53,111 nt of DNA from Ectocarpus siliculosus (taxonomy: Eukaryota; Sar; Phaeophyceae; Ectocarpales; Ectocarpaceae), in assembly GCA_000310025.1 (NCBI GenBank), contig FN648435.1:185710-238820 (forward strand), read 5' to 3'. Below are positions 15,418 to 18,299 of this stretch, one piece after another. A program made the translations under genes and the position numbers. Numbering within the stretch: position 1 is the first letter of the stretch; each line of letters opens with the position of its first letter. The notes below the pieces were generated by a model. It did not search any database and was not told where the DNA came from. It was given only the letters and a program-made list of their open reading frames with translations.

Positions 15418-16839
15418 TCAGCTTTCAGATGTGAAATATGGGCTTGTGTGCACCGGTGTTGTCATGTTGTGAACCCTCGCGCGCACCAGCGGGATGTCAT
15501 TGTTTATCGACATGACGCACATGGGCGGGATGCAGTCCAACTCAGGGTTTCCAGACAAATCTCTGCACAGGAACAAGGGCATCGGATGTGATGAAAGATT
15601 GGCGGAGGGCGACCAGCAACTCGTGACGAAAAGGGCAAGCCGCACCAAGGGCATTCAAAGACAGAAACTGACACCACAGCTGCGTCTTGACGAACTGCCG
15701 GTGCACACCTTTAAACATTGGCCCATTTCACGCACGTTGAAGGCTGTGGACACCTTTGTCGCCACAACCGAACTTTGTTCACGGGCATCGAGAACCGAGG
15801 CTATTACGCCTTCCCGAACGAGTGCCGCATACCAAACAGAAGAAGCAGCTGACTCTCAAATCACCCCCCCGTGCCCCTCATCAGGTACCGCGTATGCCAA
15901 TGCTGATTTATATTCACACGCACGTCACCGATGGGGGAGGTGTCTCGCTAACGAATATACGAATCCTGGGATTCAATGGAATCGTATTCTTGCCACAACT
16001 GCCCAGATACTTCAAAACGCTAGGCGGAGGTCAGACTATCGAATGAATTCGGCATTTGACCATTTATCGAGCTGAAATGCTGACTACAGGCAAGAGCAAC
16101 CCGAATATCCCTGGTTGCAGCATTCCGAAGAATGGGCCAACTTTCATGGACGTCCGTATTTTGAATCGAACAGGTTTCTAGACGGTTGGAATTCAACCTG
16201 GGTTTACCTACCTTTCAGCGGATTAACGTTGCTGTCATAAGAAGAGGATATCGGCGGTGGAAGTGGGGACATACTCAACGATGTGGACTATAGATATGAA
16301 CCATTATTTAGTGTCGACTACATTTACAGTTTCGATATCGAACTCATCTGGTACGCATAGATAATCAGACACGCTTTCATTCTCACGGTTGTGTGAGCTG
16401 CTCCAGGTCGTCGGAAGATGATATCCGAAAGAAACGTCAGCTCGTTGTCGTCCAAACGCGTGTCGTTTAGTTCACGGACAGCATTGTGGGAAACCGCGCC
16501 ATAGGGGACAGTTCCAGCGGTAAATCAGTTGTTGAAAGTTCCGTGTAAAACAGAAAACTTGAGTCGAGATATTGAAACAGGTTATAAAGAGCGTGACCCG
16601 AAACGCCACATACGCTATGGCCGCATGGTCGACAAGGTTCATCGTGTACCTCTCCTCCAAACCAAGAATAGCCCACAAATTAACCCTAACCGTGGCAGCA
16701 TTCAATAGGAATCGCTGGGCACATAATGGTACCGCCAAAATGAATGGAACACTTGCCTGTGACCACGGGAATCGACCGCGTCAAGACGGACAGAAGAAGG
16801 TACTGAGCAGAGGGAACGGATCGGTTTTTTAATGTGAAG

Positions 16840-16871
<32 letters not shown>

Positions 16872-17359
16872 TTACAGGACTTCCAGCTTGGACATCCCAG
16901 AGAAGAGCTCCCGGTGGAGGAATCCACAATTGTTATCGTTGAGGAACAACGTCTCCAGGTTGACGTTGTCCCCGAAGATGTGGTTCGGGATACTGATGTC
17001 CACGTTGTTCTCGTAAAAGTACCTTCGAAAAATGAGGAAACCGTTGGTGGTGAGCAACTTCGTTTGGTCGCGAATGATCGCAACATGTTCACGGCGTCGC
17101 GTCTTTGTGACGGTTCCTACCATTACACGAGCGACTAGTATTACTGGACGTTTCACAATTCCAAAATTGTTTATTTCAAGGAGTCTCCGGGGCGGACGAA
17201 AGACACCAGGAATTGACTCCATACCTCCGGGATGTGAGTAATGCCGCGAACATAACTAACATACTCCTCTGTATTCGTGCAATTGTCTTTGGCTGAAGGG
17301 CACGGTTCACTCGATCCATCCAAATCGCAATAGTGAACAACGCTGCAAGTACGACCCAT
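15418..17359 (-). CDS. Leucine-rich-repeat protein gene, partly decayed
   Basis: Three good exons and one damaged exon on the minus strand. 17359-17225 begins with ATG and is Cys-rich (C at residues 5, 11, 20 and 27), like an LRR N-terminal cap, ending GITHIPE before a GTATGG donor. 17022-16876 encodes two full LRRs (LYFYENNVDISIPNHIF, then LFLNDNNCGFLHRELFSG) and ends SKLEVL at a phase-2 CT/GTAAGT donor. 16480-16387 is a frameshifted LRR. 15562-15418 has a phase-2 acceptor, reads LSGNPELDCIPP, a typical last LRR with cap, and ends at a stop. LRRs form curved binding surfaces. Ectocarpus is known for LRR genes in which exons match single repeats and are shuffled. No kinase, ROCO GTPase or signal peptide was seen. 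Phase between the first two exons is not resolved. Confidence 0.7.
16387..16480 (-). pseudogene. Decayed LRR exon with a frameshift
   Basis: The minus strand reads ELNDTRLDDNELTFLSDIIF, an LxxLxLxxNxLxxL repeat with Thr at the second Leu. After IIF the expected continuation (DDLEQLT) is in another frame: one extra C separates them. A GTGAGA donor follows at 16386. No clear acceptor was found upstream. Either a base-calling error or a dead LRR exon. Confidence 0.6.
16757..16841 (+). repeat. Dispersed repeat B, copy 1, followed by a CAA microsatellite
   Basis: The blocks GGGAATCGACC, then GGAACGG, then an ATGTGAAGA end recur in the same order at 32470-32661, where the copy holds extra sequence. 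A (CAA)n tract at about 16842-16871 follows directly and lies in the intron next to the 16876-17022 LRR exon. Confidence 0.55.
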
Positions 17360-17724
17360 CTATACTCTTACAGAAGTCACGAAAATAAGAGGTTGCATCG
17401 TATCTGCCTTAAAAAACTGATACGATGTTGCTCCCCATTGCACATGTGAGTGAACGTCTGCCGTCAAGATTGTCCATGATTACCCCCATCTTAAAGATGC
17501 TCTGCGTTTGAAAGCCTCATCGTTCAACATTCCAATTGAGTATACGGTTGCAATCTCCCCTCCACTTCTTCATGCCGTCTTCCACATGGTACTGAGGCTA
17601 GCATTCACCATGACTCGCCCCTGTCCGCAATTTGCGAGAAGCAGCTGCAAATGCCACGCATTGACTGTGTTCATTTTTTGTCATTTGCGGGCGGGCTCCC
17701 TTGTCTACCACATGTATCGTGTAT

Positions 17725-18235
17725 TCGGCTGAAATCTTCTCACAACCGGCGAACAGATCGTCGTCCAACTCTTCCAGCCAAAAGTCTCGCATCTTCCTGT
17801 TGTAATTTCAGTGGGGGTGCGACGTTCATTGAGGACACTATTTAGAGTTGGGTAACCGACCATCGACATACCAGTTGTTCTAGCCCCTATTCACTAGCCT
17901 TCATAAGGACAGGCCGCTGTGTTCTCCGCTGCGGTCGTAAATAGTACGGAAGATCTTGACAGGCCTGAATACGCGACGCTGTGGGGTAAGCACCACCCAC
18001 CATCAGACAGCATCTCTGAGTCGTTGATTTGAAACAAAATCGACGGTGTAAAACGGCAAAAAGGGCGACATGCGACTCAAATCTCATGCACGAACATTGA
18101 ACTATCTTGGACAGGCATCATGAGGACTCAATGGAACTCCTCAACGTACCATTGAACACTCGAATGTTCCGGTCTACACTTCCAGATTCTCCAACGAAGT
18201 GAAACCCTGGCAAAGCTTCCCCGGAAGCTGGACAA
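17725..18235 (-). CDS. Two further LRR exon fragments
   Basis: 18235-18178 reads VVQLPGKLCQGFTSLENLEV and ends at a phase-2 GTAGAC donor; this is the second half of an LRR. 17796-17725 starts after a CAACAG acceptor and reads WLEELDDDLFAGCEKI, again the LxxLxxDxF part of an LRR. They lie upstream of the ATG at 17359, so they belong either to the same gene (with that ATG internal) or to a neighbouring LRR fragment. Exon ends are approximate. Confidence 0.5.
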
Positions 18236-18299
18236 CTGGGTTATATGGTCCATGTATCTGAGCATGAATCGCGACGACGTTGACATCACACATCAGGTC

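Follow-up and report, generated by a model that had tools for sequence, protein, structure and literature searches.

A partial, apparently decayed copy of an LRR gene of probable extracellular type with phase-2 exons in the brown alga Ectocarpus siliculosus

LRR exons of 72 bp in phase 2 have been described for the ROCO genes of brown algae, together with shuffling, alternative splicing and pseudogenes (Teng et al. 2024, PMC11378527, as far as its accessible text goes). The same accessible text lists 15 non-ROCO sequences of Saccharina japonica with 72-bp phase-2 exons, most of which carry LRR motifs only, and reports that the brown algal COR domain was missed by InterProScan, so that hmmsearch with PF16095 was used instead (PMC11378527). 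In Tetrahymena, arrays of 90-bp phase-2 LRR exons show an extreme phase-2 bias, and shuffling has been proposed for these (accessible part of PMC6564038). Here, we compare with these systems an LRR locus of Ectocarpus siliculosus that lies in a stretch of 53,111 nucleotides (the window; C66:185710-238820) of the 189-Mb genome (492 contigs) that we searched; our literature search found no publication on this particular gene. We suggest, with a probability of roughly 85%, that the locus is an old, unprocessed and partial pseudogene of an extracellular-type LRR gene whose nearest relative in the genome lies at C23:2743.3-2734.3 kb (minus strand).

The C23 gene has twelve open LRR or cap exons, that is, two upstream LRR exons and ten further exons that were measured (e1 to e9 and the C-cap exon: 72, 72, 72, 237, 72, 147, 72, 72, 72 and 42 nt). 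All ten measured lengths are divisible by 3, the exons have AG and GTRAG ends, and the joined product matches Pfam LRR_8 with E 5.4e-55. The best solved relatives of the joined protein are the IGF acid-labile subunit (E 4e-45) and LRRC15 (1e-44), and further ones include LGR4 and LGR5 (both kin of the gonadotrophin receptors), TLRs and VLR; these are mostly extracellular LRR proteins, and the intracellular SHOC-2 stands lower among the 60 solved relatives listed. Judged from such likenesses, the working protein of the locus would have been a solenoid of LRRs closed by a C-terminal cap, probably secreted or displayed on the cell surface, where it would bind a putative ligand. About 2.2 kb after the C-cap exon of the C23 gene lies a Cys-rich domain (CSNGLEGIDGNGVVCCPLACGQCGGKGC...; C23:2732076-2731879, minus strand), which has no Pfam match and 121 genome matches at E<=0.001 (itself included). 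Also downstream of this gene is a DUF6570 reading frame (C23:2729937-2729212, minus strand; E 5.4e-11), DUF6570 being presumably a domain of Helitron-type elements.

Within the window, one LRR exon corresponding to e6 of the C23 gene is intact (17022-16876, minus strand; 147 nt). It is preceded by ..CGAAG and followed by GTAAGT; its first base completes a codon and its last two open another (phase 2 at both ends), and it encodes two 24-residue LRRs (YFYENN..KLEV; in full, YFYENNVDISIPNHIFGDNVNLET and LFLNDNNCGFLHRELFSGMSKLEV). These splice ends, this reading and the LRR_8 match of the exon joined to the C-cap reading (E 1.1e-9) confirm the initial annotation, which had described 16876-17022 as two repeats bounded by phase 2. 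A protein search of the genome with the exon led to five places: itself, two exons of the C23 gene (e6, E 3.4e-9; e4, E 4.8e-5) and two weak matches. The closest match found, the equivalently placed C23 e6 (2737503-2737357), has the same length and phases and shares 51% protein identity, and part of the exon also aligns with it as DNA (E 4.7e-11). Read against C23 e6, the window exon contains no clear lesion; the two differ at 21 first, 10 second and 19 third codon positions, with an NG86 dN of 0.44 and dS of 0.59 (ratio about 0.74). The lower second-position change may reflect only the time before a presumed death of the gene, and the codon-position counts (for the other exons counted, in the same order: e2, 8, 6 and 6; e3, 4, 2 and 8; C-cap, 4, 3 and 7) are small, mix time before and after death and are indecisive on present use of e6.

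The relation to the C23 gene extends beyond this exon. We aligned the ten measured C23 exons one at a time (e1 to e9 and the C-cap exon, the two uppermost exons being left out), each extended by 6-nt flanks, to positions 18600-15400 of the minus strand and, as background, to 30 chunks taken from the window, each 3200 nt long. Five exons (e2, e3, e6, e7 and the C-cap exon) each scored above all 30 chunks and did so in the C23 order (at 18257, 17796, 17022, 16459 and 15562), by a small margin for e7 (36.4 versus 29.4) and the C-cap (37.0 versus a background maximum of 31.0). C23 e4 also exceeded every chunk, yet what it aligned to was the beginning of e6 in the window; a separate e4 exon was not detected in 18600-15400, and e1, e5, e8 and e9 did not rise above the background there. 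The gap between e2 and e3 measures 387 nt in the window versus 401 nt in the C23 gene, and DNA alignment of the introns gave no sequence-level match between the two loci. As the matched exons are nonetheless still about 65–73% alike, selection probably acted on both copies at some time.

Three exons around e6 are decayed. The e2 homologue (18257-18184, minus strand; 72% identical as DNA, over part of its length, to C23 2740793-2740722, E 3.6e-6; alignment score 67.6 versus a background maximum of 25.0) begins just beyond the stretch 15418-18235 to which the initial annotation referred; it retains the acceptor AG, carries a 2-nt insertion (74 versus 72 nt) and has GG in place of the donor GT. 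The e3 homologue (17796-17744, minus strand; score 47.2 versus 26.8; tblastn E 5.7e-4; DNA E 0.023) has a 19-nt internal deletion (53 versus 72 nt) with splice sites present, and the e7 homologue (16459-16387, minus strand; DNA alone, E 3.4) shows CAC in place of the acceptor CAG and a 1-nt insertion, its donor GTGAGA being kept. The matches behind the candidate identifications of e3, e7 and the C-cap are short and divergent. These three exons bear out the earlier remark that intact and decayed exons lie side by side, and it is because the neighbouring LRR exons are broken that the locus looks like a pseudogene. Collinear homology, intron-like exon spacing and disabling lesions are thus found together, as in a duplicated (that is, unprocessed) pseudogene; we infer both the death of the locus and the presence of introns, the latter from exon spacing and splice sites.

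The C-cap exon (DLSGNPELDCIPP; 15562-15521, minus strand; expected length 42 nt) has the phase-2 acceptor that had been claimed for it (GTGCAG before an A at 15562). Its C23 counterpart (2734320-2734279) is 42 nt long and ends in CCTAG followed by GTGAGT; at that place the window reads CCCAT followed by GTGCGT (between 15521 and 15520), a donor present in other exons of the LRR family too. The open frame continues down to a stop at 15418, which had been taken as the end of the exon; given where the C23 exon ends and the GTGCGT found there in the window, the last ~100 nt of the frame are probably intron read-through past the donor at 15520. A protein search of the genome with the C-cap returned nothing but itself.

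Across the LRR loci that we examined, LRR exons are as a rule in phase 2, a trait of the family and nothing peculiar to the window locus. With an LRR profile of 11 repeats (ten from the C23 gene, one from the window) we scanned 17 loci chosen for matches to LRR queries or for adjacency to such matches; hits over 10 bits came from ten of them, and the seven loci without were dropped from the phase count. A donor stood at the phase-2 place in all 11 C23 blocks and in 21 of the 24 blocks of eight other loci, the latter being the independent part of the count because the C23 repeats sit in the profile; four other donor places occurred once each in the profiled loci. By an automatic rule, phase 2 was found at both ends of 9 of the 11 C23 blocks and 19 of the 24 others. 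The acceptor rule failed for two C23 blocks (e4 and e6, where the first hit of the profile fell on a later repeat of the exon) and two other blocks, and the donor rule for three other blocks. As in the brown algal genes with 72-nt exons, the exons are close to multiples of 72 nt, hold whole LRRs and have phase 2 at both ends. Since the cut comes where a repeat ends and always splits the same codon, the frame survives the loss of any exon; the initial proposal that exons could be removed or added in frame is in keeping with these symmetric modules and with the failure to detect e1, e4, e5, e8 and e9 here.

Other LRR genes came to light in the same searches. The gene at C16:2358-2361 kb has two single-repeat exons and a 575-residue ORF with several LRR blocks, after two of which come an NPxLQCVPA cap and Cys-rich spacers. 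The exons of the genes at C3:346 kb, C3:358 kb and C14:3063 kb are equivalent and, in the parts that were read, keep one order; their repeats are up to 81% alike between genes.

As to the surroundings of the locus, the suggestion that ROCO or kinase domains might lie nearby found no match: neither a ROC-COR nor a kinase domain was detected in 20 scanned window ORFs (of 76 with at least 128 residues), Pfam giving a single match under its cut-off, and a COR search of the genome gave one match, on contig C17, barely over the cut-off. As brown algal COR escaped InterProScan according to the accessible text of PMC11378527, some COR domains may have been missed; a ROCO context and, more tentatively, a kinase one are rejected as far as the 20 ORFs and the one COR search of the genome reach. 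No tRNAs and no Rfam families over threshold were found in the window. A SINE-like dispersed repeat with an (ACA)n tail (16755-16871, plus strand) ends around base 5 of the intron that follows e6. Among the best 40 scored of 1845 candidates, it has 46 genome matches at E<=0.01, itself included. Of the 45 others, 40 show 82–93% identity across about 95 nt or more, while the remaining five are shorter or further diverged; eight copies were read, and between the longer copies the similarity extends about 100 nt further 5'. The EsV-1-7 family is expanded in brown algae, and its Cys motif has at least 150 matches in this genome (150 of 150 scored, of 880 candidates), which fits a brown alga; the 14 control genomes gave no match, though they offer no test against other algae.

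The openness of e6 and the C-cap speaks against a pseudogene. At the indel rate of the other three exons (three in about 216 nt), ~2.6 would be expected in the 189 nt of these two, and to find none has a chance of ~0.07, calculated before allowing for e6 having been picked as open. A reduced but living gene can be imagined, in which e6, perhaps with an undetected first exon, is spliced to the C-cap and the decayed exons are skipped: both exons have AG and GT ends, the join keeps the frame (phase 2 to phase 2), and the second codon positions of e6 are the less changed. We consider this improbable, given that neither the profile nor BLAST found an upstream LRR exon, that just two repeats and a cap would be left, that the C-cap donor is GTGCGT, not GTGAGT, and that the dispersed repeat adjoins the donor of e6. 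That the open frame is LRR-like by chance and no gene remnant at all can practically be dismissed: although two of the five pieces (e7 and the C-cap) stand only moderately above background, such a frame would have to account for the LRR_8 match, the genome match to C23 e6, the identical exon length and phases and the five collinear pieces.

A locus that supplies recognition diversity, its intact exons being swapped among LRR genes, would fit the symmetric phase-2 exons of the family, the undetected e4, e5, e8 and e9 and a weak signal of fusion between e4 and e6, and the idea has been published for the ROCO genes of brown algae (accessible text of PMC11378527). At the window locus, however, it is very improbable. 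The genome search returned no second DNA copy of the 147-nt exon (the sole match being itself), and none of the near-identical exons with matching flanking introns for which the initial annotation had advised a search. The 3.2-kb locus as a whole has no DNA matches elsewhere except for the dispersed repeat among the best 40 of 1845 candidates, a number scored that may hide weaker matches. Among 1123 between-gene pairs of 51 repeats, the seven most similar are equivalent exons of the C3:346k, C3:358k and C14:3063k genes, with window e6 and C23 e6 forming the eighth pair, which suggests that whole-gene copying with exon order kept fits better than exon exchange. The single DNA copy, the unmatched introns and the collinear gene copies lead us to reject recent exon shuffling, and the adjoining exons are decayed; the shuffling proposal is in the literature for brown algae, and its extension to active shuffling or recognition diversity here finds no support. 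It is possible but doubtful that window e6 is itself recombinant, its first ~33 nt resembling C23 e4 (YFYEN.VD.S) and the rest C23 e6, the breakpoint signal being weak (permutation p 0.065); equally tentatively, an unequal exchange between non-equivalent phase-2 exons may have removed the remainder of e4 together with e5 in one step. If true, this would be a caught case of frame-keeping LRR exon recombination in a brown alga.

The genes of the family are built of LRR exons that measure 72 nt or roughly twofold to threefold that length, cut in the same codon. Under the pseudogene interpretation, the window copy would have lost e1, e4, e5, e8 and e9, or let them diverge past recognition, and lesions of frame and splice sites would have gathered in e2, e3 and e7; e6 and the C-cap may still be open, most simply because not all exons have yet been hit. 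The loss of exons can be seen here, but in an apparently dead copy. The dead copy and its live-looking C23 relative allow loss and decay to be compared exon by exon, and show the 72-nt phase-2 layout in brown algal genes without a visible ROCO part. Active exon exchange is not shown, and the few copies compared suggest whole-gene copying with the order of exons kept.

Compared with the non-ROCO brown algal LRR genes in the accessible text of PMC11378527, the family shares the layout of one LRR per 72-nt phase-2 exon, whereas the window copy is partial and decayed and its intact exon is a two-repeat module of 147 nt. With the ROCO (LRR-ROC-COR) genes it has in common the 72-bp phase-2 LRR exons, and pseudogenes are reported there too (same text), but no ROC-COR was found at the window locus among the 20 ORFs scanned, and by eye the repeat is of another type (YLxxNxLxxLPxGLFxGLxxLxxL with a Cys cap, versus LxxLxxLxxLxLxxNxL in ROCO as given there). 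In-phase (phase 2) LRR exons also characterize animal gonadotrophin receptor genes (PMC11378527, accessible text), which belong to an unrelated lineage and have a seven-helix part of which nothing is seen here. Tetrahymena shares the phase-2 bias and the symmetric LRR exons, yet has units of 90 nt and thousands of young LRR genes (PMC6564038, in its accessible part), as opposed to 72 nt and no near-identical exon found in our searches. The layout is thus one already described for brown algae, to which the window locus adds one further, apparently dead, member.
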